A stretch of 54,835 bases of DNA, from the IMG/VR virus record IMGVR_UViG_3300042503_000400, positions 1-54,835 of that record; one strand, written 5' to 3'. Each line of letters begins with the position of its first letter. Positions within the stretch are counted from its first letter, which is position 1. The stretch comes from a virus. A program made the position numbers and the translations under genes. Positions 3,636 to 54,004 of the stretch are shown here, piece by piece. The notes beneath the pieces were generated by a model. That model did no database searches. It saw only the letters and a program-made list of their open reading frames with translations, and was not told the DNA's origin.

Positions 3636-3995
3636 ATGACTAAATCTGCACAAGACGAATGGGAAGACGAGCGCATCCTGATGCGATCAGAAGGCGTCAA
3701 GTTCGACGGCGACAAGCCACGTTACGACCTGATCCCCCCGGAACTTCTGGAGGAGACGGCAATCGTATTGACTTACGGTGCTGTTAAGTATAGTGAAAGG
3801 AACTGGGAGAAGGGTATGGCGTGGCACCGTCCGTTCGGTGCACTCATGCGTCATATGTGGTCGTGGTGGAGAGGCGAGAACGTAGACCCTGAGACAGGGT
3901 TTTCACATCTTGCACATGCAGCATGTTGCATTGCCTTCCTCATCACATACGAGCGCCGTAGTATCGGCAAAGACGACAGGCATAAGACAGGGTGA
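3636..3995 (+). CDS. MazZ-type dATP/dGTP pyrophosphohydrolase (dGTP_diPhyd_N family)
   Basis: 119 residues from ATG 3636, preceded by TGGAGGA; the frame is open back to 3528, but that stretch overlaps the inverted-repeat leader. The core KFDGDKPRYDLIPPELLEET, then YGAVKYSERNWEKGMAWHRP and the distal HLAHAACCIAFL, is the signature of the MazG-like family that includes cyanophage MazZ. MazZ converts (d)GTP to (d)GMP, the substrate for PurZ in the 2-aminoadenine (Z) pathway. Many phages carry the family without PurZ, and no PurZ or DatZ is visible here, so the role may be general dNTP-pool control. Confidence 0.85.
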   Translation: MTKSAQDEWEDERILMRSEGVKFDGDKPRYDLIPPELLEETAIVLTYGAVKYSERNWEKGMAWHRPFGALMRHMWSWWRGENVDPETGFSHLAHAACCIAFLITYERRSIGKDDRHKTG

Positions 3996-4292: not shown

Positions 4293-6157
4293 TGGACATC
4301 GTAACAATCGACTTCGAGACATACTACGACAGGGACTACTCGCTGTCCAAGATCACGACAGAATCCTACGTCCGCAGCCCACTGTTCGAGGTGATCGGTG
4401 TGGGCGTCAAGGTCAACGATGGGCCCGTCGATACTTACAGTGGTGACAACGCGGGCAGGTTCCTCAAGTCACTGGACTACAGCGACAAGGCCATCCTCTG
4501 CCACAACACCATGTTCGACGGGGCTATCCTCTCGTGGCACTACGGCATCAAGCCCAAGCTGTGGCTGGACACGCTATCTATGGCACGTCCTCTGCATCAG
4601 GCGACGGTGGGCGGCAGCCTCAAGGCACTGGCTCAGCACTACGGGCTGGGGGCCAAGGGCGACGAGGTCATCCAAGCACTGGGCAAACGGCGCAAGGACT
4701 TCTCCTCGGCGGAGCTGGCTGCGTACATGAAGTACTGCGCCAACGACATCGACCTGACCTACGCCCTGTTCAAGAAGCTGCGCAAGGGGTTCCCTGTCTC
4801 GGAGATGCGCGTCATCGACACCGCCATCCGGATGTACACCGAGCCGACAGTGGAGTTGGACGAGGACAAGCTGGCTGCGCACCTCGTTGTGGTGCAGGCA
4901 GAGAAGCAGGCGCTGCTCGACACCCTTGGTGGCAAGGGCAAAGAGTACATCATGTCGAACGACAAGTTCGCCAAGCTGCTGCGCAAGCGTGGGGTGGAGC
5001 CACCGACCAAGACCAGCGCGACCACGGGCAAGGAGACTTATGCCTTCGCCAAGACCGACCTCGCCTTCACTGCACTGCAAGAGCACCACGACCCCATTGT
5101 TCAGACACTGGTGACCGCACGGCTGGGGCTCAAGTCCACTCTGGAGGAGACGCGCACAGCAGCGCTGATCGGGGTGCAGTCACGTGGTCGGCTGCCCATC
5201 ATGCTCAACTACTATGGCGCCCACACTGGCCGCTTCTCCGGCGGGGACAAGCTCAACCTGCAGAACCTGCCCCGTGGTGGTGTGCTGCGCCATGCCCTCC
5301 GGGCACCCGAGGGACACAAGATCATCAGCTGTGACAGCAGCCAGATCGAAGCCCGCATGGTGGCTTACCTTGCCGGGCAGGCTGACCTTGTGCAGTGGTT
5401 CCGTGAGGGCCGGGATGTTTACTCGGAGTTCGCCACGACGTTCTACGGCCGCAAGATCACCAAGGCTGACAAGCTGGAGCGTCACGTGGGCAAGGCAGCC
5501 ATCCTTGGGCTGGGCTACGGCATGTCGGCCGACAAGTTTGGACTGACGCTCAAGCGCGGCAAGCCGCCCGTCAACCTGCCAGAGGAGGACATCGAGCGTC
5601 TGGTTCGCACCTACCGCACGGGCTATCACCAGATCGTCAAGCTCTGGGGTGAGTGCGGCTACGCCCTGTCCAGCATGGTGGCTGGGCGCAAGGGGCGGAT
5701 CGGTAACATCCTGACCTATGATGCCGATGGTATCTTCCTGCCCAACGGGATGAAGCTGCGCTACCACGGCCTGTCGGCCACCGATCGGAACTTCACCTAC
5801 ATCCAAGACCGCCGCATGTTCGATCGGGCGATGAAGGCCCGGCTCGACGGCAGTAAGGTTGACACTGGCAAGGGCCAAATCCCCGGCCAGAGCCGCATCT
5901 ATGGTGCGATGGTGGTGGAGAACGTGACCCAAGCACTGGCACGCATCGTTGTAGCAGAGCAGATGCTGGCGATCCAAGACGCTGGCTACCACGTCGCCTT
6001 CCAAGTGCATGACGAGAACGTCTGCGTGGTGCCTGAGGACAAGGCTGAGCAGGCGCAGAAGGACATCGTCGAGATCATGTCCACCGCCCCGACTTGGGCA
6101 CCCGACTTGCCCGTGGCCTGCGAGGCAGGCACGGCTGACAACTATGGAGACACGTGA
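4292..6157 (+). CDS. polA: Family A DNA polymerase (PolA-like) with 3'-5' exonuclease domain
   Basis: 621 residues; replicates the phage genome. The exonuclease domain is N-terminal: motif I DFET at 7-10, motif II around HNTMFDGA, motif III in KYCANDIDLTYALF. Polymerase motif A is CDSSQIEAR with Asp348. Motif B runs from Arg397 through Lys401 to Tyr409-Gly410. Motif C is VHDE at 572-575. There is no 5'-3' exonuclease domain, as in most phage PolA. The residue matching E. coli Phe762 is Leu405. ATG 4292 is chosen over GTG 4289 because DFET then sits at the usual distance from the N-terminus. Confidence 0.97.
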   Translation: MDIVTIDFETYYDRDYSLSKITTESYVRSPLFEVIGVGVKVNDGPVDTYSGDNAGRFLKSLDYSDKAILCHNTMFDGAILSWHYGIKPKLWLDTLSMARPLHQATVGGSLKALAQHYGLGAKGDEVIQALGKRRKDFSSAELAAYMKYCANDIDLTYALFKKLRKGFPVSEMRVIDTAIRMYTEPTVELDEDKLAAHLVVVQAEKQALLDTLGGKGKEYIMSNDKFAKLLRKRGVEPPTKTSATTGKETYAFAKTDLAFTALQEHHDPIVQTLVTARLGLKSTLEETRTAALIGVQSRGRLPIMLNYYGAHTGRFSGGDKLNLQNLPRGGVLRHALRAPEGHKIISCDSSQIEARMVAYLAGQADLVQWFREGRDVYSEFATTFYGRKITKADKLERHVGKAAILGLGYGMSADKFGLTLKRGKPPVNLPEEDIERLVRTYRTGYHQIVKLWGECGYALSSMVAGRKGRIGNILTYDADGIFLPNGMKLRYHGLSATDRNFTYIQDRRMFDRAMKARLDGSKVDTGKGQIPGQSRIYGAMVVENVTQALARIVVAEQMLAIQDAGYHVAFQVHDENVCVVPEDKAEQAQKDIVEIMSTAPTWAPDLPVACEAGTADNYGDT

Positions 6158-9942: not shown

Positions 9943-10941
9943 ATGAGCAACATCGTACCTTCCAACATCCAAATCCCGGCGCACCTCGCACGTGTGGTCG
10001 GTCAACCCTCTGCACTGTCGGCCGCTCTGGCCGGTGGTCTGGCAGGTGGCGCAGAGTACCCGCGCATCTCCATCAAGGGCAGCCGCTTCCGCATCATCGA
10101 GGGTGGTGCTGAGACTGTGCTTGAGGACACCAAGCTGTCGGTCGTGATCGTGGGTGCCAACCCGCGCCTGTCCAAGACGTTCTATGCCAAGCAGTGGACC
10201 CCGGACAGTGAGCCCTCGTCGCCTGACTGCTACTCGCTGGATGGCGTCCGCCCGCATGGTGAGAGCACCGACCCGCAGAACGACACCTGCGCTGGCTGCC
10301 CGATGAACGCATGGGGTTCCAAGATCACGCCGATGGGCCAGCAGATCAAAGCCTGCGCCGACCAGAAGCGTCTGGCTGTCGTGGCATCCAACGACCCCGA
10401 GGGTCCGGTGTACCTGCTGCAGATCACCCCGGCCGCGCTCAAGGGTCTGGGTTCCTACCAGAAGGAACTGCAGATGCGGGGCATCCCGGTCGAGGCAGTC
10501 AAGACCGTGGTCACCTTCGACACTGACGCCAGCTTCCCGAAGCTGATGTTCAAGTTCGGCGGCTTCCTTGACGAGGGTGAGTACGCTGCGGTCGAAGGGC
10601 TGTTCGGTTCGGACAAGGTGCTTGAGATCACTGGCGAGAAAGAAACCGCCGCTGAACCCAAGGGCGAAGCCAAGCCGAAGGCAGCTGCCAAGCCCGCCGC
10701 TGTCGCTGCCAAGCCGAAGCCTGCTCCGGTCGAGGAGGAAGAAGCCCCGGCACCCAAGCGTGGGTTCGGTGCGAAGGCAGCCGCTCCGGTCGAGGAGGAA
10801 GAAGCTCCGGCCCCCAAGCCGAAGCCTGCCGCCAAGGCCGCAGCACCCAAGGCCGCAGCACCCAAGGTGGAGAAGGCTGGTGCCAGCTCTCTCGCCGACG
10901 AGATCGCTGATCTGATGTCGGACATGGACGACGATGACTGA
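9943..10941 (+). CDS. Single-stranded DNA-binding-like protein with cysteine cluster and acidic tail
   Basis: 332 residues. Residues about 1-225 form a globular core with Cys96, Cys116, Cys119 and Cys138 spaced as a possible zinc site (DTCAGCP holds the central pair). Residues about 230-305 are a low-complexity Ala/Pro/Lys/Glu linker with repeated PVEEEEAPAPK. The C-terminus ends DLMSDMDDDD, the kind of acidic tip by which SSBs recruit partners. Location between nuclease/helicase and primase genes supports an SSB or annealing role. The start has GAGAGGAC upstream. Confidence 0.75.
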   Translation: MSNIVPSNIQIPAHLARVVGQPSALSAALAGGLAGGAEYPRISIKGSRFRIIEGGAETVLEDTKLSVVIVGANPRLSKTFYAKQWTPDSEPSSPDCYSLDGVRPHGESTDPQNDTCAGCPMNAWGSKITPMGQQIKACADQKRLAVVASNDPEGPVYLLQITPAALKGLGSYQKELQMRGIPVEAVKTVVTFDTDASFPKLMFKFGGFLDEGEYAAVEGLFGSDKVLEITGEKETAAEPKGEAKPKAAAKPAAVAAKPKPAPVEEEEAPAPKRGFGAKAAAPVEEEEAPAPKPKPAAKAAAPKAAAPKVEKAGASSLADEIADLMSDMDDDD

Positions 10942-11218
10942 GCAGAAGCGGATCACGTTCGAGAAGATCGACGCGCTCCGTAGGCACATGCTGCTCACGC
11001 ACACCCAGATGGCAAGGTTACTCGGGGTATCCCGGGTAACCTACTACAACTGGAAAAAAGAGGGCCACCCTGCCGAGCGCAACGCCACGAAAACGCGGGC
11101 TATCCTAAAGGACATGCTCCGTGTTATGACAGAACACGAGTGGCCGGCACCGGCCATCGTGGCAATGGATCAGGACGACAGACTGATTGCATTGCAGAAG
11201 TTGCTTCTCGTAAAATAA
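10934..11218 (+). CDS. Helix-turn-helix DNA-binding protein
   Basis: 94 residues. TQMARLLGVSRVTYYNWKKEG (shown in part) at about 23-43 has the exact Cro/CI-type helix-turn-helix layout: MARLLGVS, then RVTYYNWKKEG as recognition helix. The remainder is helical. It overlaps the SSB gene by 8 bases and is followed by a GC-rich hairpin. It may regulate phage promoters or act as a replication accessory protein. Confidence 0.8.
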   Translation: MTEQKRITFEKIDALRRHMLLTHTQMARLLGVSRVTYYNWKKEGHPAERNATKTRAILKDMLRVMTEHEWPAPAIVAMDQDDRLIALQKLLLVK

Positions 11219-11220
11219 AG

Positions 11221-11243
11221 GTGGGGGGTGTCGAGCCCCCCAC
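11221..11243 (+). terminator. GC-rich hairpin between HTH and primase genes
   Basis: GTGGGGGG (11221-11228) pairs perfectly with CCCCCCAC (11236-11243) around a seven-base loop, two bases after the HTH stop codon. No T-run follows, so it may attenuate or stabilise the RNA rather than end transcription. Confidence 0.55.
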
Positions 11244-11263
11244 ACACCGAGCAGGGTAGGGAC

Positions 11264-14131
11264 ATGGACACAGCAGAGTTCTTGGGCAGGGTGCTGCCCG
11301 GCGAAGGGTATTATGTAGCGACAGTTATCAACCCGGACAGACGTGCGCAGAAGTCTTACGAGACCATAGACGCGCTGTCCAACGCGGTCATCCGGATCGA
11401 CATTGCTGGTGGTAACGTGTACTACGCAATGTCCTCGTTCACCGAGGCGGGCAACCGCAAGCAGGTGAACGTCAAGCAGACCAAGGCCCTGTTCATCGAC
11501 ATCGACTGCGGTGAGGACAAGCCCTTCGCCGACCAGCGCGAGGGCGCCAAGGCCCTCAAGACATTCCTCAAAGCCAGTGGCCTGCCACCACCCATGATCG
11601 TCAACTCGGGCCGTGGTCTCCACGTGTACTGGCCGTTGACCGAGGCGCTTGCGCCCGCTGACTGGCAGCCTCTGGCTGATGCACTCAAGGAGTGCGCGAA
11701 GCAGCATGGCTTCGAGATCGACCCGGCGGTGACCGCGGACAGCGCCCGGGTGCTGCGCCCAGTGGGTACCCACAACCCCAAGAACGGGGCGGAAGTGGTG
11801 CTCATCAAGGACGCACCTGACAACGACCCCGATGATCTGCGCCAGCTCCTAGCAAACTACATGTACCGTGCCCCCACCAAGCGGGGCTTCGCTGCGCAGG
11901 CCAAGCCTGTGTCCAGCATCACGGGAGCACTTGCGTCCGGGCAGGAGTACGAGCCTGCTATCGCGGGCAACATCATCGAAGGCTGCGCACAGGTACGCTG
12001 GGCTGCCAACAACCAAGGGGATGTGGAGGAGCCGTTCTGGTACGCGCTGCTCGGCATCGCTGCCTTCTGTGACGACCCGGAAGGGACGGCCATCGCGTGG
12101 TCAGACCAGCACCCGGACTACGACTATAGTCGTACTGTCCTCAAGGTGGAGCAGTGGAGAGGCAAGGCCACGGGACCAACCACCTGCGCCAAGTTCAAGG
12201 ACCTGCGCTCGACGGGCTGCAACAAGTGTCCCTTTGCTGGCAAGATCACCTCCCCCTGTCAGATCGGCCGCAAGCTGACTGAGGCCGAGGGCCCGGCCGA
12301 GGATGCACTTGACGAAGTGGCACATGAAGTGCCCATGCCTGCGGGCTTCAAGCGTGTGGCCAAGGGTGGCATCGCCCAGACCATCGACGACACTGACATC
12401 ATGGTCGTACCGTTCGACCTGTACCCCGTGAGCTACGGCAAGGACGAAGCGCTGGGGTACGAGGTGGTCCGCTTCCACTGGAAGCGCCCGCACAAGGGCT
12501 GGCAGGAACTCAAGTTCAGGCAAGCCTACCTCGCCGACGGGAACCGCGAGTTCCCCACAGCCATCGCTGACCAAGGTATCGTGCTGCCCTTCAAGGGCAT
12601 AACCGAGAGGTTCCAATACATGCTCCGTTCCTACATGGATGAACTCCGCAAGCTCAAGACGACCACCAACCTCTACACCACGCTCGGGTGGAAGGAGGAG
12701 AACTCCCTGTTCGTGCTCGGCGACAAGCAAGTCCGCAAGGACGAGCAAGGCCAGACCGTGGTCGAGGATGTCGTGCTGTCCTCTGCGGTGCAGCGCATCG
12801 GCACTGGGATGTATGGCACCAAGGGTGACCACGAGAAGTGGATCAAGATCACCAAGCTCATGGAAGCTGCCGGGCTCAAGGCTCACATCTTCGCCATGGG
12901 CGTGTCCATGTCCGCGCCGCTCTACCAGTTCACCGGGCTCAAGGGTGCGGTGCTGTCGCTCTACGGGCCGACAGGTAGCGGCAAGTCGCTGGCTCAGCTG
13001 GCGATGCAGTCTGTCTGGGGCAACCCTGTCGAGCTGCACTTCCAGTCTAAGTACACACAGAACGCGCTGTTCACCCGCCTGTCGTTCCTGAACAACCTGC
13101 CCATGACGATCGACGAGACCACCATGATGCCCGACAAAGAGGTCGGCGACTTCATCTACGGTGTGACGCAGGGCCGGGACAAGAGCCGCCTCAATGCCCG
13201 GGTGGAGGAGCGTGATCCGCGGACGTGGGCTACGCCTGTGACCCTGTCAACCAACCGTCCGATGGGCGGCAAGCTGCTGGCTGGTAACTTCGAGACTGAC
13301 GCGCAGATGGCCCGGATGTTGGAGCTTTCGCTGGAGAGTTCGGACATCTTCACCAAGAGCACGGATGTGGGGCGCAAGTTCTACAACACCATCACCCGCA
13401 ACTACGGCCATGTCGGCCTGCTGATCCTCCAGTGGCTGGTGGACAAGGGCGAGGTCGCCATCGTCAAGATGATCGCCGACCACATGGTCGCCTTCGAGAA
13501 GAAGTACAAGGTTCGGTTCAGCGGCGAGGAGCGGTACTGGGAAGTCATGATCGTGCTGGCTGACCTGATGAACAAGGTCGCGGTAGAGAACGGCTGGGTG
13601 GACTACGACTACACCAAGGCCACTGAGTTCGCACTAGAGCAGGCAGGCATGATCCGCCGCAGCATCAGCGCCGCCAAGCTGGATGAGTTCGACTTGCTGG
13701 GCGAATACCTCAACGAGATGCGTGCTGCCACTGTCCTCGTCTCCCACATCGACGGCCACGACCTGCCGATCTACGACCCCAGCAGGCTGCCACGCGCAGA
13801 AGTCCGGGTGCGGTTCGACCTGTACCGCAAGGCCACCAATGCCAAGAACGATCGGGGCATCCTGCTTGTGGACCGCACCCACTTCCGTCAGTGGATGGCC
13901 AGCCGGGGCGGGGACTGGAAGAAGTTTAGCGACGTGCTCGTGTCGGAAAGCGTCGACGCCACGCCGTCATCCAAGAAGGCCATCCTCGGCCGGGGCATCC
14001 CAGAACTGCGGCTCCCTCAGACCTACGTGGTCGGCATCAACCTTGCCCACGACCGGCTCCATACTCTCTTGGAGAATGAGGATAACCGGCCGGAGAGCAT
14101 GACGCTGGGTCAGCTGCGGGCAATGCCCTAG
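11264..14131 (+). CDS. Primase-helicase: AEP-type primase fused to DUF927-like helicase
   Basis: 955 residues from ATG 11264 with GGGTAGGG upstream; GTG 11228 lies in the hairpin and is unlikely. The primase half has the metal pair Asp79-x-Asp81 (LFIDIDCGED), the strand NSGRGLHVYWPL with its catalytic His, and DSARVLRPVGTHN, as in archaeo-eukaryotic-type primases. Cysteines 308, 319, 322 and 332 form a likely zinc or iron-sulfur knot between domains. The helicase half has Walker A GPTGSGKS (568-575) and TIDETTMM with the DUF927 layout. It would prime and unwind DNA at the phage fork. Its stop shares CTAG with the convergent giant gene. Confidence 0.92.
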   Translation: MDTAEFLGRVLPGEGYYVATVINPDRRAQKSYETIDALSNAVIRIDIAGGNVYYAMSSFTEAGNRKQVNVKQTKALFIDIDCGEDKPFADQREGAKALKTFLKASGLPPPMIVNSGRGLHVYWPLTEALAPADWQPLADALKECAKQHGFEIDPAVTADSARVLRPVGTHNPKNGAEVVLIKDAPDNDPDDLRQLLANYMYRAPTKRGFAAQAKPVSSITGALASGQEYEPAIAGNIIEGCAQVRWAANNQGDVEEPFWYALLGIAAFCDDPEGTAIAWSDQHPDYDYSRTVLKVEQWRGKATGPTTCAKFKDLRSTGCNKCPFAGKITSPCQIGRKLTEAEGPAEDALDEVAHEVPMPAGFKRVAKGGIAQTIDDTDIMVVPFDLYPVSYGKDEALGYEVVRFHWKRPHKGWQELKFRQAYLADGNREFPTAIADQGIVLPFKGITERFQYMLRSYMDELRKLKTTTNLYTTLGWKEENSLFVLGDKQVRKDEQGQTVVEDVVLSSAVQRIGTGMYGTKGDHEKWIKITKLMEAAGLKAHIFAMGVSMSAPLYQFTGLKGAVLSLYGPTGSGKSLAQLAMQSVWGNPVELHFQSKYTQNALFTRLSFLNNLPMTIDETTMMPDKEVGDFIYGVTQGRDKSRLNARVEERDPRTWATPVTLSTNRPMGGKLLAGNFETDAQMARMLELSLESSDIFTKSTDVGRKFYNTITRNYGHVGLLILQWLVDKGEVAIVKMIADHMVAFEKKYKVRFSGEERYWEVMIVLADLMNKVAVENGWVDYDYTKATEFALEQAGMIRRSISAAKLDEFDLLGEYLNEMRAATVLVSHIDGHDLPIYDPSRLPRAEVRVRFDLYRKATNAKNDRGILLVDRTHFRQWMASRGGDWKKFSDVLVSESVDATPSSKKAILGRGIPELRLPQTYVVGINLAHDRLHTLLENEDNRPESMTLGQLRAMP

Positions 14132-17100
14132 TTCAGCGTCATCAAGTCGATTAGGTTCTGCAGATCACGCTCGGCAGCATTAGGCGCGGACCGCAAGGTC
14201 CGCTCCATAGCTGGACGATCTGCTTCTTTTAACGCACGCTGAGAGTTCTTGACGAAGTTCTTGATCTCCAGACCAGTGCCCTTGGACCCTGCGTTCCACG
14301 TGTCAACTTCCGCTTCGATCTCACGCGCCCGCGCCCGGTCGCCCTCCATCATGGCCTTGACCCATCCAGTCCTGTACGCCGTAGTTTGCTCACGCTGGTA
14401 GTCCGTGATGCGTTTGGCCATACCGATCATCTCGTACTGACGGGAAGCCGCGACTGGGTAGAACCCAAGCACCCGCGTCAGAACGACACCGGCACTCATC
14501 TCCGGCGACACAGTGTAACCGCGCCGATCAGTAATTGCACCGTTCTGCATGTAGACGTAGGCTTCACCAGCCGCACGCATCATGGTTACGGGGGACTCGC
14601 GCAGTACATCTTCAACATCCACCGTGGCGGTGAATGGGGCCGTGAGCGCCTGTTTGGCAAACGTACCTGTAGCACCAATCATGCCTGCAGCAGGACCGAG
14701 GATTTCCATGACAGACCGGAACGGGTCAGCCCCAGCTATGAGAGCGCCCGAGCCCGGCAGCAAATCCCCGAGTGAGGTCTTGGCGGCCACGTCTCCGGGT
14801 ACGAACTGGTTGACCAAGCCCTGCATAAGCAGCGGCGACATCCCCGGGAAGATGCTGTCCAACATCTGCGCTGCTTCGTAACGGGCGCCCTGCCATCCGG
14901 AGATTTTTAGGGTCTGCGCGATGGTGTCGATGACATCTTCAAGGTCTTCCGCGAAGGGCAGACCCGCCAGACCTGTCAGCATCCACAAGGACCCCAACAT
15001 AAAAATCTGTCCCTTGCGGTCCATGTTGGCCAGCAGCTGGACAGACGTGGTGACGAACACCTTGTACATGTAGGCAAAAGACTGGATGCCCGAGCGCCAT
15101 GCAGGCGGACGGTTAAGGACGGCGTAGTCACCAAGCGTAAGGTCCAGTGCTTGCAGCGAGAACTGTGTCGCTTGGTCGTGCGCCTCGGCTTCTGTCTTAC
15201 CGGCTGCCAGCTTGCGGGCGTATTCAAGCCGATAGGCTGTAAGACCTGCAGTCTGGCGCGACGCGCGTTCAAACGAGTTGAACGTCCACATCCATACGTC
15301 GATGGCTTTCTGGGTAGCCCCGCGAGTTACCCGCCCGCGGGATGTACCGATGAGCGAGTTGGTCTGGGCGGGCGTTAGCTTGCCGTCAAGGATACCTTCC
15401 TTGAGGAACTGTGCTTCTCTGGCCGACAGACCAAACTGTTTCTGGAGTTTGTCACTGGCTTCCACCTCAGCAAAAAACTCAGCGGTATCGAACCGACTGT
15501 CAACAATACTGCGCCCACCTACCTGCACAGCAGCACGAACCATCTCCTTGTGGACGTTACCGAGACCGAAGCCCCCACCGAAAGCGGTTTTGCTGTTGTA
15601 TGAAGCGAGATAGGGGACGACGTTGGTCTCCAGCGCTACGAAGTTCATAGCCCCCGTTGCAACAGAGCCGCCCAGCTGGACCATAGAAGTAATTGCCCGC
15701 AAGGCGGACACCCAAGGCTTCGCCCCGAAGTCGGATTCGTCAACGCTTCTGTTGCCCTCGACAAACTCCATCGTCTTAGCGGCTTCGCCGTAGAACTGGT
15801 TGGCGCGGTTGGCGGGACCGCCACGGGTCTGCTGTACCATGTGGGCGTAGGCTTCATAGATACGGCGTGCGTCCACCTTGGCCTCACGGGAGACCGTGGG
15901 GTCTGCGTCCATAGCATCGGCGCGTTCTTTCAGAACCTCCGCCCAGTCGCGCCCGGTGCGCGGGTCCTTGAGCTCCGCGTTCCACAGTTCATTCGTGGAC
16001 CTCATGCTGCGGTCCATAAGCTCTGACCTACGCACACGCGTGGCGATCTTGGCCACAGTAGATGCGCGACCTTCAATGTGACGAGATGCAGCCATGATCG
16101 CGTCCGGGTCGGCGCCGGGGGTAAACGCCCGCATCAGGCGGTTACGAGCTGAGCTGTTCTGCCGAGTGAGCGCGACGACCAACTGTTCCAATTTTTGCGG
16201 CGACAGGTTGATGTCAAACTGCCGGATGCCGCGAAGGAACTCGTTAAGGTTGAGGTCCGGCGGCGCAGCTACGGTTTCCAGCGCGGTTTCAGGCACAGCC
16301 TGTAGCGTTACATTGCCGAGCACGTAGCCTTGTGCGGCGTCGCTGTAGTACATCACCTCGAACGGGGTGTTACCAAAGGCTTCGTTGGCCTTGCCCGACA
16401 TCTCCACAGCTTCCGACAACGAGTCAAACTGGGAGTAGACCAGTTGCTCCCGGTAGGAGTCCTTGACCTGCACCGGCTTGCCACCGACTAGGGCTACGAC
16501 ACGCATCTGGAACCGCCCCTCCCGAAGGATAGGAACGTACCCGGTGAACAGCGTGCGCTTGGTGTAAGCGTCCGCGTCTTGGTTGGCGATCTCGGCGGTG
16601 ATGATTTGCTTCACCTTGTCCTGCACCGCGAACTTGTCACCCTTGAGGGATAGGCGCTGCCGGAAGCCCTTGAGCTTGGCAATTAGATCGTCTGCGATCT
16701 GGGCTTCCATGGCAGCAGGTAGAGTTCTGTCTACTTCGCTGCCTGCCTCGCCCTTGATGAACACACGCGGCTCTACGAGCAGCTTGCGCAGTGCATCGAA
16801 ACGATCTGTCGACTCCCCAATGAGCGCCATGTTTGTCTGGCGCAGCACATCGTTGGCGTAGGTCTGATAGTCGGGGTCGAGCCTAGCGCCGCCGGACTCG
16901 CTCACGGTGACGTCTGTGGTGTACAAGTTACTGTACGTTTCGGCCACCGTTACGAGCGCTGCCCGCTCATCCGCAGTTAGCTCTCCATCCGTGACAGACT
17001 GCGCCAGTTTGCGGAACATAAGATCGCGGTTGTCGATCAGGCTCTGGTAGTGCGCCTCCAAAAGTTCAAGCTCAATACCGTCCATGGCTTTACGGACGGA

Positions 17101-20100
17101 TTCATAGCTACGCCACTCGGTGCTGTTCTCGGTCAGACCCTCGATCCCCGGGAAGCGCTCCTTCTTCTTGACGGTCTTGCCGCCCTCCTCGAACTCCACG
17201 TCGTAGTCAAACCCGTCGCGCATCTGTTCAAAGGTGCGAGTGCCGTTCTTCTGCAGCCGTTCAATCTCGGGGGTGTTGCGGGTAAGTTTGTCCCCGTCGA
17301 TCCGGAACAGTGGCACACGACCAAGATCACCGCCTGCTTTCGCGTAGTCAGAGGCGCCGCGGCGAAGACCCGCCATCAACATTTTACTGACGGTGCTGCG
17401 CTGCGCGTTAGAAATACCGCCAAGCTCTCCGTATACGGCGCGGCTTAGCGCCACCCGCATCATCTCGTTGTACTTGGTCTTGAGCGACATAGAGATGTCG
17501 CGGGCTTGCTTTAGGGAGTCATCAAACGCAGCGGACCCGGGGTTAATCCGTGCACGGTAGTTGGCGAGACTGAGCACCTGAGCCTTGAACCGGTCTAGGG
17601 AGTCAATCGTGTTGATGTTGCGAGCTTTGATGAAGTCCCACGCTTCGCCAAAAGACTGCGGAGCCGCGCCCAAATCGTCGCGCATCAGCCCCACTTCGAT
17701 GTTCACGTCACGCAGGGACTTGCCGGTTGAGAACCGCCCTGTATCACCCGAGGTTTCCACGTTGTGCAAGCGTTGCCCTACAGACCCCGCGTCGAAAGTA
17801 ACCCCCGTGCCGTAGCGCACATAGCGCCGGGACTGGTCGAGCAGGTAGCGGGTCATCTCATCGCCGTAACGCACGCCGAGCTTGTTTAGGATGCTCTTGA
17901 TAGAGTTCCACACCCGGGCCACGAGACTGGTGTCGAGGATGGCTGCGTAGTCCGACAAGTATTCTTCCACGGCCTCGGCTCTGGAGAGACCGGGACGCGC
18001 AGCCATAGCTGCGTCGGCTGCCCGTGACACGCGCTCATCAAGGTTGTACACCGCTTCCATCAGAGCGTCGAACTTCGCGCCGGGCATGATGGCCCGCAGG
18101 CCATAGTGGCCCATGCTCTCGTGGGCGAGGACGAAGTTAAGCTGCTGCTCGGTGGCAATGCGATCGGTGAAGACGACGACCTGACCGTCGCCGAAGGAGT
18201 AACCCATGGCCTGAGCGGTGTCGAAGTCGCCCTGCGGGCGGGCTGCCACGGCGCGGGCGTAAAGCTGTGGGAACTTGGCCTTGAGGTCAGCCTGATTGCG
18301 GACCACGGTGACCTTGGGTGCACGTGCCAGCTTGCTGAGGAAGTTCCTGACCAAGAGCTGCACGCGGCCGGGCGCGATGGCAGTGATGGGTTTGCCGTCC
18401 AGATCGACGACACCCTCGATGGTGTTCCAGTTGGCGAGGGCGAAGCCGCCACGAGCAGTCAGTTCGCCACGCTGAACATTCGGTTCGTTCTGGGCGTTGA
18501 CGTAGGCCAGCAGTGGGACGTTACCCCGACCCCGCAAGGCGGTACGACCTTCTTCGCCAAGGGCTTTAACCGCCACAGCGGTCTCACGAAATGCCTTTAT
18601 AAACCCAGACGGTAGATCGGTATTGCTCGCACGGCTCGCGGCAAATACGTCAAGCATCGTGTTCAACGTGTGGATTGCAGTAGACCCACCGACTTGAGAT
18701 TCTAGAGCTTCACCTGCGGCTTCCATCTCGGGTACAGACCCGACACTTTTATATTTATCCCAGAGTTCTTTCGCATAGGTCTGGTCAGCAGATGACAGCG
18801 TAGCAACGTACTCTTTGGCACGCCGTAGGCGAGCACGATAGGCAGCGGCCAGTTCCGGATCAGTGTCCTTGAGCCCCTTGGGGGTACGACCTTCGGCGAT
18901 TGCCATCACGCCAAACAACGCTTGGTCCCGCTCATCAGCGGCCAACTCGGGGTCTGCCAGTTCCTCGATGTACCCGTCCAGTTCGGCATTTAGCAACTCT
19001 GCGTCAGACACGGCCTGCGCACCGGCCTCGTCTTTGGCCCGTTCAACGGCTTGCTCAAAGGTAACCGCTTCGCGGGTCTGTACTGCGGTTGGCGCTGTAC
19101 GTTCTGCCTCCCGGCGGGCTGCTATAGCCTCTCTATTCTGACGCGGTGTCCTGTAGGTCCCGCCAGCAGTAAACTTGTCAAGTACAGCTTCCACATTGGC
19201 TGCAGCGGTGGCTTCTCTACCACCAGTTCTCGTGGTTCCTTTTTCGGCAAGCGCGGCAAACGCACTCGGCCGTGTTGGTGCCGTAGTTACTTCGGTAAAG
19301 ATCGAAGATGGCTCAGCCCGAGGTTTGGGTTGGGCAGGCACACCCGGGCCCTCGGGCACCGCCTCGGCCCGAGGTTTAGGTTGGGCGGCAGCGCCTCGCC
19401 GGACTGTCGCCGCCTTGGGTGCAGCAGCTTTGGGCGCACCCTGACGCTGGATGCCGGCCTTGCCGGTTGGTTTGGTCGGCGCCGGAGGCGGTGGCGGGGG
19501 CGCAACAGCGCGGTCGATCGCAGCGTTCACTGCGTCGGGGTCACTGGCGATTAGGGTACCAATGCCCTGCGCATCCGTGCCGAGGTCGGCGAGGACAGCC
19601 TGCTGCTGCTCCGGGGTGAGGGCACCCAAGCGCTCGATGACGTCACGCTGCTTCTTCGGCAGCGGCTTGGCTTTCAGCGGGGCCTTGGCCTTGGGCGCGG
19701 GTGTGGCCTTCGCCGCCGCCGCTCTCTGTGCCTTGGTGAGCGGTCGCGCTACGGGAGCGGCAACAGGAGTAGGTACAGGCGGCACTCGCGTGTCCGGCGT
19801 AACTCCCGCACCCACGTCCTCGATCCGACTGCGCAGCCCCGCGAGCACCCTAGTGGCGTCAGTGTATTCTGCCCCCGCCCGTTGCTGCTGGACCCTGTCA
19901 CCGGTCGCACGCGCTTGGATGAGGGCTCGGTTCGCAGCCTCGACCCGTGCCTCAGCCTCCATCAGGTTGTTGTAGTACAGCCGATCGGCAGGAGTGGCGG
20001 CTCCTGCTACCTGCTCCGCTACCGACATGTCGGCAGCCCTACCACGCGCAGCAAGTTCCTCCCCGCGGGCGGCACGCTGTAGCGATCGGCCGGCTGCAGC

Positions 20101-21894
20101 CTGCGCGACTTCGCCCTCTAGTGCTGCATCAAGCGCAGCACCCTGCCTGTTGGCTGCGGCTGAGCGACTGCCGCGAAGTAGGTTGCGGGCCATCGCGCCC
20201 CGGGCGACGTCTACGGCCTGCGTAGCGTCAAGCGCAGCATCGCGTGCTTCCACCGCGGCTCTCCGCTCGTTCGCGCGCAGCAGCGTGATAGGGGCAGGCG
20301 GACCCTGCATCGGGCCAAGCGGAGCAGGCCCTTGCATCTCGCCGAGCGGCGCGGGCCCCTGCATCGGGCCAAGCGGAGCAGGCCCTTGCATCTCACCAAG
20401 CGGCATCGGCCCCTGCATCGGGCCAAGCGGAGCAGGCCCTTGCATCTCACCAAGCGGCATCGGCCCCTGCATCGGGCCAAGCGGAGCAGGCCCTTGCATG
20501 TAGTCTTCTAGCCGCGGACCCTGCATCGGTCCAAGCGGCGCTGTGTCGGCCGGTGCCTCTTTCTCAGCCGCCTGCTCAGTGGCAGTGGTGTTCAGATCGA
20601 GCGGCTTGTCAGTAGGAACTGGTGGCTTGGGAGCGCCACGCGCAAACGCACCCTGTGGGAGCGCGACACCAACACCGCCACCGAGGAGGGCACCAGCACC
20701 TGCTGCCACGAGCATCTGCTCGCCGTACCGTTCGGCGATATAGGGGGCCAGTACTTTCCAGTCCTGCGGGGACAGGTTGTCGTGTACCATGGGGTCGAAC
20801 AGCACAGACTCAAGGAAGGTCTGCGCCACTTCCGTGCCAGCTTCCGCAAAGCCAGTGGCAACACCAGAGGTCAGTCGACGGCGAACCGCACTCTTGGCTG
20901 CGTTCTCAGCTGCGGCTTTAACGACCGGGCTCAGCAGTCGGCTTTCGATACCGAACGTGTCGAGGTAGGAGTTAGCCAGTGCGCCGCCGAGGACGCCCAC
21001 CTTAACCAGTGGATCGCTCAGGTCCTGCTGGTTGCGGACAGCCGCGTCGTACATACCGGCGAGGTGGATGGGGAAGTTAGCCCCAGCTGCGCCAGCAGTA
21101 GCGGCGCGTGTTACACCTTGAGTAGCCATACCGGCACGAGAAGCCAGCGACGCGGCACCCATACCACCCGCTAACGACCCCACCAGCAGCGGGATGGACT
21201 CGATGGACCCGTCGACGATCTGCTCCCACAGAGAGCTGTTCTCAGCAATGAGCGCGGAGCGCAGCTGTTCGTTCTCAGAGTCACCAAGAAGCGACTCGAC
21301 CGGAGCACGCAGCGCAGCACCCGTTTCCTCGAAGCCCGCCAGTGTCGCGGCCGTACCCGGCAGCGTGCCAAGACCGTAGGCTAGGTTCTTGAGACCACGA
21401 CCCAGCAGTTCCCCGGTGCCACGGCGCTCGGAAAACGACGCGAGGTACTGCCCGAACGCGTTACCGGGTAGAGCAACCCACCCAGCGCCAGTAGGGCGAG
21501 TGGTATTCCCCGGCGTCTGAGCAGCTTCAAGCGCAGAGCGGACGTCATCAGCTTTGAACACACGGTCGCCAGCGAACATTTCGTTCGTGGCTTGGTTGAA
21601 GTAGGCCGTGGCGGGAGGACGCACTGGCGTACCAGCGGGGGTACCAAGAGTCGGTCCCTCGAACAAACTCGCTGCGCGGGCGTCCCCGGCCGCACGGGCT
21701 TCGTTAAGCGTAGTCAGTGCCGAAGGCGCTTGCCGCGGAACCACGCGGCCGGAAACGAGTGTGTCTGCGTCTGTCGGTTGAAGACTACCGGCGCCCATGC
21801 GGGTTGCCGGATCATCCCCGAAACGAGCGGACGGGACACGAAGCCCCGTCCCCATAGCTTGGCTGACCGGCCTGTCAAAAAACATTTCAGCCAT
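14128..21894 (-). CDS. Giant polyvalent-type internal virion protein
   Basis: 2588 residues, the last gene of the late operon. In order: an N-terminal region with small-residue hydrophobic stretches; a Pro/Gly/Met/Gln nonapeptide repeat (about 450-537); an Ala/Pro/Lys linker region (to about 880); HESMGH at 1258-1263 inside LAHESMGHYGLRAIM; long helical regions; and a C-terminal part around FNSFERASRQTAGLTAYRLE with a hydrophobic segment near residue 2300, resembling LPD38-type domains of large polyvalent proteins. Such proteins are packaged and injected with phage DNA. HExxxH is not the classical HExxH metalloprotease motif, so catalysis is uncertain. Position after the other internal proteins supports ejection. 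Confidence 0.85.
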   Translation of the reverse strand: MAEMFFDRPVSQAMGTGLRVPSARFGDDPATRMGAGSLQPTDADTLVSGRVVPRQAPSALTTLNEARAAGDARAASLFEGPTLGTPAGTPVRPPATAYFNQATNEMFAGDRVFKADDVRSALEAAQTPGNTTRPTGAGWVALPGNAFGQYLASFSERRGTGELLGRGLKNLAYGLGTLPGTAATLAGFEETGAALRAPVESLLGDSENEQLRSALIAENSSLWEQIVDGSIESIPLLVGSLAGGMGAASLASRAGMATQGVTRAATAGAAGANFPIHLAGMYDAAVRNQQDLSDPLVKVGVLGGALANSYLDTFGIESRLLSPVVKAAAENAAKSAVRRRLTSGVATGFAEAGTEVAQTFLESVLFDPMVHDNLSPQDWKVLAPYIAERYGEQMLVAAGAGALLGGGVGVALPQGAFARGAPKPPVPTDKPLDLNTTATEQAAEKEAPADTAPLGPMQGPRLEDYMQGPAPLGPMQGPMPLGEMQGPAPLGPMQGPMPLGEMQGPAPLGPMQGPAPLGEMQGPAPLGPMQGPPAPITLLRANERRAAVEARDAALDATQAVDVARGAMARNLLRGSRSAAANRQGAALDAALEGEVAQAAAGRSLQRAARGEELAARGRAADMSVAEQVAGAATPADRLYYNNLMEAEARVEAANRALIQARATGDRVQQQRAGAEYTDATRVLAGLRSRIEDVGAGVTPDTRVPPVPTPVAAPVARPLTKAQRAAAAKATPAPKAKAPLKAKPLPKKQRDVIERLGALTPEQQQAVLADLGTDAQGIGTLIASDPDAVNAAIDRAVAPPPPPPAPTKPTGKAGIQRQGAPKAAAPKAATVRRGAAAQPKPRAEAVPEGPGVPAQPKPRAEPSSIFTEVTTAPTRPSAFAALAEKGTTRTGGREATAAANVEAVLDKFTAGGTYRTPRQNREAIAARREAERTAPTAVQTREAVTFEQAVERAKDEAGAQAVSDAELLNAELDGYIEELADPELAADERDQALFGVMAIAEGRTPKGLKDTDPELAAAYRARLRRAKEYVATLSSADQTYAKELWDKYKSVGSVPEMEAAGEALESQVGGSTAIHTLNTMLDVFAASRASNTDLPSGFIKAFRETAVAVKALGEEGRTALRGRGNVPLLAYVNAQNEPNVQRGELTARGGFALANWNTIEGVVDLDGKPITAIAPGRVQLLVRNFLSKLARAPKVTVVRNQADLKAKFPQLYARAVAARPQGDFDTAQAMGYSFGDGQVVVFTDRIATEQQLNFVLAHESMGHYGLRAIMPGAKFDALMEAVYNLDERVSRAADAAMAARPGLSRAEAVEEYLSDYAAILDTSLVARVWNSIKSILNKLGVRYGDEMTRYLLDQSRRYVRYGTGVTFDAGSVGQRLHNVETSGDTGRFSTGKSLRDVNIEVGLMRDDLGAAPQSFGEAWDFIKARNINTIDSLDRFKAQVLSLANYRARINPGSAAFDDSLKQARDISMSLKTKYNEMMRVALSRAVYGELGGISNAQRSTVSKMLMAGLRRGASDYAKAGGDLGRVPLFRIDGDKLTRNTPEIERLQKNGTRTFEQMRDGFDYDVEFEEGGKTVKKKERFPGIEGLTENSTEWRSYESVRKAMDGIELELLEAHYQSLIDNRDLMFRKLAQSVTDGELTADERAALVTVAETYSNLYTTDVTVSESGGARLDPDYQTYANDVLRQTNMALIGESTDRFDALRKLLVEPRVFIKGEAGSEVDRTLPAAMEAQIADDLIAKLKGFRQRLSLKGDKFAVQDKVKQIITAEIANQDADAYTKRTLFTGYVPILREGRFQMRVVALVGGKPVQVKDSYREQLVYSQFDSLSEAVEMSGKANEAFGNTPFEVMYYSDAAQGYVLGNVTLQAVPETALETVAAPPDLNLNEFLRGIRQFDINLSPQKLEQLVVALTRQNSSARNRLMRAFTPGADPDAIMAASRHIEGRASTVAKIATRVRRSELMDRSMRSTNELWNAELKDPRTGRDWAEVLKERADAMDADPTVSREAKVDARRIYEAYAHMVQQTRGGPANRANQFYGEAAKTMEFVEGNRSVDESDFGAKPWVSALRAITSMVQLGGSVATGAMNFVALETNVVPYLASYNSKTAFGGGFGLGNVHKEMVRAAVQVGGRSIVDSRFDTAEFFAEVEASDKLQKQFGLSAREAQFLKEGILDGKLTPAQTNSLIGTSRGRVTRGATQKAIDVWMWTFNSFERASRQTAGLTAYRLEYARKLAAGKTEAEAHDQATQFSLQALDLTLGDYAVLNRPPAWRSGIQSFAYMYKVFVTTSVQLLANMDRKGQIFMLGSLWMLTGLAGLPFAEDLEDVIDTIAQTLKISGWQGARYEAAQMLDSIFPGMSPLLMQGLVNQFVPGDVAAKTSLGDLLPGSGALIAGADPFRSVMEILGPAAGMIGATGTFAKQALTAPFTATVDVEDVLRESPVTMMRAAGEAYVYMQNGAITDRRGYTVSPEMSAGVVLTRVLGFYPVAASRQYEMIGMAKRITDYQREQTTAYRTGWVKAMMEGDRARAREIEAEVDTWNAGSKGTGLEIKNFVKNSQRALKEADRPAMERTLRSAPNAAERDLQNLIDLMTLN
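20303..20540 (-). repeat. Tandem 27/54-bp repeat coding a P-L-G-x-M-Q-G-P nonapeptide
   Basis: The string GGAGCAGGCCCTTGCAT recurs at 20321, 20375, 20429 and 20483, a period of exactly 54 bases. Each period encodes two nonapeptides, APLGPMQGP and MPLGEMQGP, with slight variants at the ends. The repeat lies in frame in the giant gene. Confidence 0.95.
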
Positions 21895-33433: not shown

Positions 33434-34413
33434 GTGATCGCTCCGAGTCTGGTGCCAGTGGCAATCCAAGTAATGTTTGAGTTTCCAGCAATGGCTGCAC
33501 CACCTGCGCCTCCGGTAGATGTCAACGTTACCGTTGAACCTGCGTACGGGACTGCTGATAGACTTTGACCAGAAGCACCCCATTCGCCACCGCTCCCGCC
33601 AACTCCAACTAATGTTGAAAGACCTAGTGGCCGTGTTTGTAGAACGGGGTCAGGGGCCTGAGCAATAAAGACAAAACCACGCCCCCCGCTCCCAGCAGAT
33701 ACTAGCGTACCAGCAGTGCCGTTCTCAGCACTGCCGTTGGCGCTAGTGGCGGTTACGTTGCGGCCACTTGCGACTCCGCCCACCCCGCCAGCCGCGTTCG
33801 AAAGACTACTCCTGCCGCCGCCGCCGCCGCCGCCGACATATTGCCCATTAAACTTAAGGTCACTGAACACTATCCCGCCAGCGCCGCCGCCGCCGCCGCC
33901 AGCAATTCGACCAGCGTTATTGATAGAGACTGCTGACTGGACGAGTAAACCCGGTCCGCCAGAGGCCCCCGGAGTCTGGGCTGTGTCTTGAAGGTTACCG
34001 GCAACTATGGCGCTACTACCACCGTTACCACCAGCACCGCCCATACCCTGAATGGCACCGTTGTTGACGAGGGTCAGGCCACCGGGGAAGCTGCCGCTGA
34101 TCGTCATGGCGTAACTGCCAGTGGAGGTCGCGGAGATCGTAACGCCAGATGCAACGGTTATGGTGGCGGCAGAGGCGCCGTTCCAGCCATTGGCCAGCAT
34201 GTAATTGCGAAGGTTGAGGTTGTTCTGGTTCGAGCTGATAGTGTTGAGGAAGGCGTTGGCCTTGCCTTGCAGGCTGCTCATCCCAATAGCGCCGGATGCC
34301 ACGCCTGCAAGGGAGCGCAGAGCAGCATCGTTCATGCTGATCTCGGCAGTCGCAGAGCGACCAAGCTCTACGTTCACTTCGGACAGGGAGATTGTGCCTG
34401 TTGGCAGCGGCAT
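33430..34413 (-). CDS. Glycine-rich tail fibre / adhesin
   Basis: 327 residues. The opening TGTISLSEVNVELGRSATAEIS and INDAALRSLAG-type segment is common to receptor-recognition tail proteins. Residues about 110-300 carry long Gly runs (AGGGGGGAGG, VGGGGGGGRSS, GSGGRGFVF, VGVGGSGGEWG), the hallmark of polyglycine-II sandwich adhesins in T2 gp38-like tips. The runs occur where variable loops would face the receptor. Likely sets host specificity. Confidence 0.85.
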   Translation of the reverse strand: MPLPTGTISLSEVNVELGRSATAEISMNDAALRSLAGVASGAIGMSSLQGKANAFLNTISSNQNNLNLRNYMLANGWNGASAATITVASGVTISATSTGSYAMTISGSFPGGLTLVNNGAIQGMGGAGGNGGSSAIVAGNLQDTAQTPGASGGPGLLVQSAVSINNAGRIAGGGGGGAGGIVFSDLKFNGQYVGGGGGGGRSSLSNAAGGVGGVASGRNVTATSANGSAENGTAGTLVSAGSGGRGFVFIAQAPDPVLQTRPLGLSTLVGVGGSGGEWGASGQSLSAVPYAGSTVTLTSTGGAGGAAIAGNSNITWIATGTRLGAIT

Positions 34414-50585: not shown

Positions 50586-50809
50586 GGGGGGATGGTAACT
50601 CTTGGAGGCGGGGGCGGTCAATAGTGTAAAGATTTGGTTTTTTGGGCCGGGAAAATTTTTTATAAAGTGATAGTAGGGGGGTGTATAGTTGTAAAGTTTG
50701 GTAATTTTGGGTTGTGTTGTAAGGGGTCTACTACAATAGCGGGGGGCTGAAAAAATCCAATCCAACCCCCCACCCCCCTGCCTGCCTGCTATCGCGCGGC
50801 GCGCGTGCT

Positions 50810-51014: not shown

Positions 51015-51413
51015 ATGGCCAAGATGTTCGACATTGAACCGGTAGTTCTGTCCCTCAAGCTGACCGTCACCAAAGCGACGGAAAACGGTCTCTTGGGCGG
51101 CGTCACCGACGTCGAAGTGGTAAGCGCCAACGGGGAAGCGGATACCCGCTTCTACGGCTTTGCCAGCAACTGGGGCAGCCTTGTGATGAACTACAAGTCA
51201 GAAGGCCGTCCGGCAAAGCCTGCCAAGGCTGACAAGCCCGCGCCGAAGGCGCTGACTGCGACGCAGAAGGCAATGATCCCGGCCAACGGGACCAAGGCTA
51301 AGGGTAAGGCCAAGGCCGAACCTGCAGCACCTGCAGCACCTGCCACGATTGCGGGCTTTACCCCCGAGCAGCTTGCGAAACTGCAGGCGCTCAAGGATGC
51401 AGGCATCCTCTAA
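51015..51413 (+). CDS. Unknown early protein with Ala/Lys/Pro tail
   Basis: 132 residues from ATG 51015 with GAAAGGAAA upstream; ORF 50973 is longer only because of an in-frame ATG without a site. Residues about 1-60 form a small beta-rich domain (MAKMFDIEPVVLSLKLTVTK, DTRFYGFASNWGSLVMNYK). Residues 61-105 are an Ala/Lys/Pro linker. The C-terminus is GFTPEQLAKLQALKDAGIL. First gene of the rightward arm, followed by a strong hairpin. Confidence 0.8.
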   Translation: MAKMFDIEPVVLSLKLTVTKATENGLLGGVTDVEVVSANGEADTRFYGFASNWGSLVMNYKSEGRPAKPAKADKPAPKALTATQKAMIPANGTKAKGKAKAEPAAPAAPATIAGFTPEQLAKLQALKDAGIL

Positions 51414-51418
51414 GAACA

Positions 51419-51442
51419 GGGCGGACCCACAAGGGTCCGCCC
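51419..51442 (+). terminator. Strong hairpin after the first rightward gene
   Basis: GGGCGGACCC and GGGTCCGCCC form a perfect ten-base-pair stem closing on ACAA, six bases after the stop codon. There is no T-run, so it may attenuate or protect RNA. Confidence 0.65.
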
Positions 51443-51467
51443 AACCTCTCTCACAAGGAAGATAGAA

Positions 51468-51632
51468 ATGCGGAAATACGACGATGTTCAGCGCGCATCC
51501 ATCCAGCGCTCCGAGGCATACCTGCGCAAGAAGGCGATGTCCAAGCCCGTAAGCTATGTCGGCGAGTTTATCGCAGGCATACTGTTCATGGCCTTGATGG
51601 CCCTGCTCGCAGTGATCCTACTGTCGCTCTGA
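51468..51632 (+). CDS. 54-residue membrane protein
   Basis: ATG 51468 with AAGGAAG upstream, TGA 51630-51632. A charged N-terminus (MRKYDDVQRASIQRSEAYLR, KKAMSKPVS) is followed by one hydrophobic segment at about 31-54 (EFIAGILFMALMALLAVILL). An intrinsic terminator follows at once. A short early membrane protein may modify the host envelope or exclude other phages; nothing in the sequence says which. Confidence 0.8.
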   Translation: MRKYDDVQRASIQRSEAYLRKKAMSKPVSYVGEFIAGILFMALMALLAVILLSL

Positions 51633-51638
51633 CCCTGA

Positions 51639-51669
51639 CCCGCCCGGCTCACCACCGGGCGGGTTTTTT
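51639..51669 (+). terminator. Intrinsic terminator
   Basis: CCCGCCCGG (51639-51647) and CCGGGCGGG (51655-51663) form a nine-base-pair stem around CTCACCA, followed by TTTTTT. It ends the short rightward transcript before the repeat region. Confidence 0.93.
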
Positions 51670-51678
51670 GTTGCCCGC

Positions 51679-52234
51679 TTTACACCTTTACACCGCCCGC
51701 ATAGGAGGCAGTTGCGTGCTGCGCGTCGTTAAGTTTTGCTCGTTTCACTCGCCATACGTCGGGGGCCTGTAGCTCTGACACGTAGACATGCTGCCCTTTA
51801 CACACTGTCAGGCCAAACAGTCGGGGGGCTGTAACGTATTGATATTAAACAACTATCTATTTTCGCTTTACACTACCTTTACACAAAATGTGTAAAATTT
51901 AGATGGTTTACATGTTTACACCACGATGGATAGTCCAATGAAACCAAGGGGTTAGCGGATGTAAACCAGTGTGTAGTAGTAGTAAAGTATCTCTACTATC
52001 TATAATATATAGGTTTTTTTTGAAGATACGTGACGGAAATCGTCAATCAACTCGGTTGAGTGTAAACCTTTACAATACAACCGTCCCAGTTGCACAATTT
52101 TAGCGCCGGATATTCTGAAAAATCGTAGATAGTTTAGATACCTACCCACAACCCATTGATTTTCCATACGTTTTACTATCTATCGTGTAAAGATACTTCG
52201 CCTACCCAAACCTCAATTCTTAGATACTTTACAC
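51679..52234. repeat. TTTACAC / GTGTAAA box array
   Basis: Exact TTTACAC on the plus strand begins at 51679, 51687, 51797, 51867, 51878, 51915 and 52228; GTGTAAA begins at 51890, 52060 and 52185. Near copies are TTTACAT 51907, TGTAAAC 51961 and TTTACAA 52069. Two pairs are eight bases apart (51679/51687 and 51907/51915). Two form palindromes: TTTACACA-AAA-TGTGTAAA (51878-51896) and TGTAAA-CC-TTTACA (52061-52074). Confidence 0.9.
51852..52183. repeat. ACTATCTA box family
   Basis: ACTATCTAT at 51852-51860, 51995-52003 and 52175-52183 on the plus strand, and TAGATAGT at 52126-52133 on the other. The last plus copy is two bases from a GTGTAAA box. The boxes are interleaved with the TTTACAC array. 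Confidence 0.8.
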
Positions 52235-52370
52235 TCTATTTCCCCCCTACCCCCCAGATTTGACGCCATCTGGCCCGATCGGCTAGGAAGATGGGGCTGG
52301 CCGAGGTCCACCCAAACCACCTCCGGTCCGGCAAACTTAACAATCTTAACACACACTGGAGACTACCATC

Positions 52371-52643
52371 ATGGCTAACTGGGCCAAACTTGCCGACCTC
52401 TCCGCTGACCTTTACAAGAAAACCCTTACAGTCCGGCCCTTGTGCCGCCCTTACATCAGTCAGGCTGATGCCATCTATGACTACACCGTCGGCCATGAAC
52501 TGGTCGTCGTGGACCAATCGTCCCCCCTTAACAACTGCCGGATCACTGTCTGTGACCGTCATGAGTTGAAGCGGCACTACGACCTGACCCATCTCAACAT
52601 CCAGTTCAACCCCGGCATGGCTCCGGTTGAAGTCACCCTCTGA
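52371..52643 (+). CDS. Hypothetical protein after the repeat region
   Basis: 90 residues from ATG 52371 with GGAG nine bases upstream. ANWAKLADLSADLYKKTLTV, then YTVGHELVVVDQSSPLNNCR, a small beta-rich domain ending APVEVTL. It is first of a new rightward series (52371-54835+). No family recognised. Confidence 0.75.
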   Translation: MANWAKLADLSADLYKKTLTVRPLCRPYISQADAIYDYTVGHELVVVDQSSPLNNCRITVCDRHELKRHYDLTHLNIQFNPGMAPVEVTL

Positions 52644-53918: not shown

Positions 53919-53925
53919 TGTCGAA

Positions 53926-53941
53926 ACACCCTTCGGGGTGT
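53926..53941 (+). other. cUUCGg tetraloop hairpin
   Basis: ACACCC-TTCG-GGGTGT, a six-base-pair stem on a very stable loop, lies between the stop of the 53700 gene and the ATPase start. It has no T-run. Confidence 0.6.
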
Positions 53942-54004
53942 CTGTGGCAGGTGGCTCCTGCTGCACTGATGAGACAAGCCAAACAACCTCTTATGGAGAA
54001 CACA

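Follow-up and report, generated by a model that had tools for sequence, protein, structure and literature searches.

The ori/crr system of the satellite phage P4 combines the alpha protein, a fusion of primase and helicase, with short boxes in both orientations, and its second box site is distant. At lambda ori a phage-encoded initiator is paired with repeated sites beside an AT-rich region, and the O iterons are regularly spaced palindromes inside the O gene. In the scheme of iteron origins, which includes those of pSC101 and R6K, IHF and DnaA assist (PMC5043065). SaPI Rep helicases recognise the iterons of their origin by a C-terminal domain, and the DUF927 protein Cch is related to SaPIbov1 Rep (PMC7581432).

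Here we describe a box array at 51.68–52.24 kb of a 54.8 kb phage contig, an IMG/VR record (termed the window, meaning the whole stretch of DNA analysed), which judged from its sequence is probably an iteron-type replication origin of the phage. This reading rests on the density of the boxes, the presence of the array at a homologous place in relatives, the least stable DNA, IHF sites and the class of the candidate initiator.

The locus has in common with lambda ori a phage-encoded candidate initiator and repeated sites beside an AT-rich region, although its array is intergenic; with P4 it shares a candidate initiator that joins primase and helicase in one protein, short boxes of either orientation and a second, distant box site, but its box sequence, its helicase subfamily and its IHF sites set it apart. 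With the SaPI and SCCmec modules (SaPIbov1 Rep, Cch) the phage shares a DUF927-type self-loading helicase, related by sequence and fold, along with short repeats and an AT-rich origin (PMC7581432); in the phage the helicase is fused to Prim-Pol, the boxes are on both strands, there are IHF sites and, if the genome is circular, the helicase gene follows the array at ∼14 kb, whereas the SaPI origin is directly downstream of rep. Shared with pSC101 and R6K are iterons, IHF site(s), an AT-rich unwinding region and, in some members, a DnaA box (PMC5043065), but no Rep_3-type initiator was identified here, the boxes are shorter and scattered in either orientation, and the window array is without a DnaA box.

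Few environmental phages have a known origin, and a frame consisting of an IHF pair, least stable DNA and a box array can point to one. This frame is shared by the members of a large uncultured family and seems to reach cultured Pseudomonas and Rhizobium phages, for which neither the record annotations nor a Kochitakasuvirus paper mention it. The locus moreover gives a SaPI-Rep/Cch-like Prim-Pol helicase a specific candidate origin, and its drifting box word makes co-evolution of initiator and origin testable. It is a good but precedented example of such an origin, made interesting by its conserved IHF frame, the drift of its word and the helicase link.

GENOME AND RELATIVES

The minus strand of the window carries T7-like portal/adaptor, TerL and capsid genes from ∼14 to 50.6 kb; the replication genes, on the plus strand, encode a PolA-type polymerase, an SNF2-type helicase, a PD-(D/E)XK nuclease and a protein that joins a Prim-Pol to a DUF927 helicase. 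The phage is of lytic type, and its host is probably a proteobacterium. Its two arms diverge at about 50.58–51.01 kb. A previous inspection of the letters and open reading frames (the sequence-only reading) had placed the array between the arms and just after an intrinsic terminator; the terminator is there and the array is near the divergence, but it sits on the rightward side, ∼1 kb in, with a two-gene leader operon before it. The surroundings of the array are:

51015–51632 (rightward): small two-gene leader operon
51637–51665 (+): intrinsic terminator closing the leader operon, 11-bp stem, 7-nt loop and T run
52260–52289 (+): conserved promoter-like element TTGACG-N16-GCTAGGAA for the rightward genes, aligned in relatives
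52371–52643 (+): first gene 3′ of the array, encoding a conserved 90-aa protein

The promoter-like element has the conserved general form TTGAC(A/G)-N16-GGCTA, which we take to resemble alphaproteobacterial housekeeping promoters and which would then hint at the host group.

Eighty relatives were fetched using the terminase as bait. They are mostly uncultured phages from freshwater and other metagenomes; the cultured distant relatives are the Pseudomonas phages Rollin and KPP25 and Rhizobium phage RHph_TM3_14A.

THE BOX ARRAY

The exact word TTTACAC (or GTGTAAA) occurs 13 times in the window, with 10 copies in the 556 bp of 51679–52234 and the others at 1747, 7342 and 50624. Whole-window shuffles contained 2.6 copies in total (maximum 8), the shuffled array region 0.23 (n = 2000, maximum 3), and no 7-mer of any kind exceeded six copies in 500 shuffles of that region. 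The initial claim that ten exact copies are far above chance is thus confirmed, and frequent occurrence of the box elsewhere in the genome, which would have refuted the sequence-only reading, is not seen. Counting the core TTTACA gives 13 occurrences within the array. The box is asymmetric and lies on both strands, and the spaced direct pairs (8 and 11 bp) and the inverted pairs already described are present. The array is gene-free, bounded on one side by the leader-operon terminator and on the other by the gene at 52371. In the following list the main word is termed the A box and a second word, TATCTA, the B box:

51679–51685 (+): A box TTTACAC
51687–51693 (+): A box TTTACAC, direct pair (8 bp)
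51757–51770 (+): conserved CGTCGGGGG..CTGT element, in nearly all aligned relatives
51797–51803 (+): A box TTTACAC
51854–51859 (+): B box TATCTA, within ACTATCTA
51867–51873 (+): A box TTTACAC
51878–51884 (+): A box TTTACAC, direct pair (11 bp)
51890–51896 (−): A box, inverted relative to 51878
51907–51912 (+): A box core TTTACA
51915–51921 (+): A box TTTACAC
51960–51965 (−): A box core TTTACA
51997–52002 (+): B box TATCTA, inside the candidate unwinding element
52060–52066 (−): A box
52069–52074 (+): A box core, divergent from 52060
52126–52140 (−): two B boxes (TAGATAGTTTAGATA)
52177–52182 (+): B box TATCTA
52185–52191 (−): A box
52221–52226 (−): B box
52228–52234 (+): A box TTTACAC, the last of the array

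The G-rich element CCATACGTCGGGGGCCTGTAG at 51757–51770 has an imperfect copy at ∼51819–51833, and is among the best-conserved parts of the array region.

A DNA search of the array region against annotated phages gave no match. Home-made motif discovery, run region by region, drifted to AT-rich noise, and word counts were used instead. Most relatives have a box array at the homologous place, upstream of the conserved 90-aa gene and the early rightward genes, and complete relatives have their boxes concentrated at this one spot; the search among related phages that the sequence-only reading had called for therefore finds the region conserved at the same gene-free position. The word itself drifts: it is CTTTACAC in close relatives, CTTTACA with CTTAACA in G005, CTTGACA with CTTTACA in a second clade and CTATACA in G008. 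The accompanying second word is TATCTA in the first clade and AATCTA or GATCTA in the second. The boxes vary in orientation and have direct spacings of 8, 11 and 14; both properties fit iterons.

The reading of the boxes as sigma-70 −35 elements was rejected: they should be followed by −10 elements, but TATAAT-like sequences at spacings of 16–18 have a frequency of ∼3%, against a background of 3.2%. Phage-specific promoters are argued against by the confinement of the boxes to two spots; a search for a single-subunit RNA polymerase was uninformative on this reading, as its control genomes were silent.

MELTING ELEMENT, IHF SITES AND DnaA BOXES

The IHF consensus used was WATCAANNNNTTR, as in the literature. 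Only two perfect matches occur in the window (0.37 expected genome-wide); both are in the array, 317 bp apart, around the spot where the DNA is least stable. The features are:

51832–51844 (−): IHF consensus site 1 (TATCAATACGTTA), consensus match
51942–51954 (+): IHF-like site 2 (AACCAAGGGGTTA), with one mismatch; L025 and L035 have perfect sites near the corresponding position
51974–52024: least stable DNA of the whole window by nearest-neighbour stability at the 50- and 100-bp scales, candidate unwinding element
52149–52161 (−): IHF consensus site 3 (AATCAATGGGTTG), consensus match

By the same stability measure, each of the nine near-complete relatives has its least stable spot in its array region. 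This spot is likewise intergenic and AT-rich in Rollin, KPP25, the Rhizobium phage and MW202675; MW202675 serves as an analogy only, since its homology is limited to one structural stretch. The words TATGCAA and AAAAGGT cluster at the least stable spot of Rollin, and CGTAACA at that of KPP25.

Across 32 array regions the IHF consensus occurs 52 times, versus 1.3 in shuffles, a count that comes from related regions and does not represent 52 independent events. Because of this shared ancestry the footprint of conservation at site 1 is the stronger argument for IHF: among 14 aligned relatives entropy is zero or nearly so in the consensus columns, while the four spacer columns have 0.9–1.5 bits. 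At site 3 the relatives keep a perfect site in either orientation, and several have one in the opposite orientation a few bases away. Paired IHF sites are also found in contigs G012, G017, G018, G019 and G022. In RHph_TM3_14A, despite the lack of DNA similarity, two sites separated by 318 bp lie where AT content is highest in the 45 kb examined. Perfect sites are missing from a few relatives (L071/G007).

The window array contains no DnaA box TTATCCACA within one mismatch. Since TTTACAC is not a DnaA box either, identification of the array with DnaA boxes, and with a DnaA-dependent origin, was rejected for the window. A perfect DnaA box does occur inside the arrays of L068, L081 and L085, and in KPP25 the sole perfect DnaA box adjoins the AT-richest spot and a cluster of CGTAACA. 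What stays constant while the word drifts is the frame: least stable DNA, IHF sites and, in some relatives, a DnaA box.

In all ten family genomes (G009 having been reoriented before the comparison) the array and the circular GC-skew minimum are separated by 1.3–5.1 kb, a proximity confounded by the nearby change of transcription polarity, so that it counts weakly. In KPP25 and Rollin the minimum is farther away.

Two cultured phages have unannotated, origin-like intergenic regions of their own. That of KPP25 (AB910393, 26179–26900) has eight copies of CGTAACA and the only perfect DnaA box; that of Rollin (OR577172, 1–900) has repeated AAAAGGTAGTAA and TTGCATA words and an IHF consensus site.

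CANDIDATE INITIATOR AND PROPOSED MECHANISM

Two adjacent genes of the replication arm may act at the boxes:

10934–11218 (+): 94-aa HTH protein conserved in the family, candidate box binder or adaptor
11228–14131 (+): 967-aa Prim-Pol and DUF927 helicase (Pfam PF06048, fold match), candidate initiator

In the 967-aa protein an N-terminal Prim-Pol is followed by the DUF927 helicase, a domain present once per genome in 10 of 10 family genomes. A sequence search of solved structures with this protein matched SCCmec Cch (2e-11) and a pathogenicity-island protein (2e-8). Its predicted model has a mean pLDDT of 82.5 and a pTM of 0.47, the placement of the domains being uncertain, and its top fold matches are Cch (5DGK, 5e-19) and the SaPIbov1 replication initiator Rep (8TCH, 1.3e-14). 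We infer that the Prim-Pol/DUF927 helicase is the best candidate for a box-binding initiator, possibly together with the HTH protein, whose gene is directly upstream.

The tip of the HTH recognition helix reads YYNW in every TTTACAC genome tested, YHAW where CTTAACA is mixed in, and mostly YYGW in the second clade. Tip and box word may thus co-vary, a pattern that mostly follows phylogeny, with one case apart.

At the proposed origin, the phage initiator would bind the boxes as iterons, and host IHF, with DnaA in some relatives, would bend the DNA and help to melt the AT-rich element near 51974–52024. The helicase would then load itself, the Prim-Pol domain would prime and the phage PolA would extend the primers, with early rightward transcription beginning just downstream, at ∼52.26 kb. 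Repeats at one locus, an adjacent easily melted element and IHF sites, all features of iteron origins, are found here. Counting against an origin are the distance of the array from the initiator gene, the lack of a DnaA box in the window array, a GC-skew minimum that is close to the array rather than at it, the few relatives lacking a perfect IHF site and the presence of boxes at the left promoter too.

Among the binders that the sequence-only reading had proposed, a phage initiator gains from the low stability, the IHF sites, the DnaA boxes of relatives and the SaPI-Rep/Cch-like helicase in every family genome. Its host factor would by sequence be IHF, at sites other than the boxes; host DnaA as binder of the boxes is not borne out.

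ALTERNATIVE FUNCTIONS

Outside the array, the copy at 50624 to which attention had been drawn is real and has a partner at 50690:

50624–50695 (−): minor site of two A boxes, 50624–50630 and 50690–50695, beside a leftward promoter-like element
50621–50592 (leftward): promoter-like TTGACC-N18-TACCAT, putative left-arm promoter

This minor site lies where duplex stability is second lowest in the window, and both of its boxes are conserved. Because such a pair adjoins the putative left-arm promoter, the boxes may have a regulatory role, in line with the regulator of both arms that the sequence-only reading had also proposed. The array could accordingly be a set of operators through which a regulator, for example the HTH protein, controls the early rightward and left-arm promoters while IHF shapes the promoter complex. 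The last box, 25 bp upstream of the conserved rightward promoter-like element, and the different recognition-helix tips in genomes with different words, mostly phylogenetic as that difference is, agree with such control. We nevertheless consider it unlikely as the main function: an array of ∼560 bp lies mostly far upstream of the promoter and surrounds the least stable DNA of the genome rather than a promoter, relatives have DnaA boxes in it and no −10 element follows TTTACA. Operator and origin roles may coexist. A tentative scheme, which we rate as improbable, lets one box couple two steps: on opening the origin at the array, the initiator complex would also bind the left-arm pair, so that late transcription would be switched on by, or in step with, replication, and box word and HTH recognition helix would evolve together, making the origin of each lineage private.

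IHF and repeated boxes also occur together at lambda cosB, where gpNu1 acts, and the array could likewise be a packaging site (cos/pac) bound by the small terminase subunit with help from IHF; the terminase gene is within 2.5 kb, and the HTH protein has weak PDB similarity to gpNu1-type domains (E 0.03). The distance between array and terminase varies among distant relatives, however, the AT-rich array region being separated from the gene by ∼6 kb in Rollin, 4.5 kb in KPP25 and 8 kb in the Rhizobium phage, which disfavours packaging. The likelier small subunit is moreover the product of a separate conserved 157-aa gene that adjoins TerL, and neither an unwinding element nor DnaA boxes are expected at a packaging site, so that this function is very improbable. 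Lambda attP and P1 parS, with IHF and arm-type or ParB-type boxes, offer a further resemblance, by which the array would be the attachment or partition site of a temperate or plasmid-like phage. The matching enzymes are absent: searches of the window and nine relatives, in which controls matched, found no tyrosine integrase (PF00589), serine recombinase (PF00239), ParA (PF13614) or ParB (PF02195), and no resolvase was found. We therefore give this possibility the least credence of all, close to none.

OTHER FEATURES OF THE GENOME

A giant protein of 2588 aa is encoded at 14128–21894 (−); only its C-terminal part matches phage families, and these are without assigned function. A tRNA-Ala call at 19483–19578, inside this gene, is probably spurious, and the Rfam ar14 match scores below its gathering score.

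A type II hammerhead ribozyme lies at 53919–53984 (+) of the window, on the early strand, 1–2 kb downstream of the array, and recurs in relatives:

G001: 34085–34152
G008: 2037–2101
L017: 3189–3255
L036: 3508–3575
L029, two copies: 96–160 and 589–653
L019, two copies: 3836–3902 and 4334–4398

The paired hammerheads of the latter two relatives are ∼495 nt apart and could free a short RNA.
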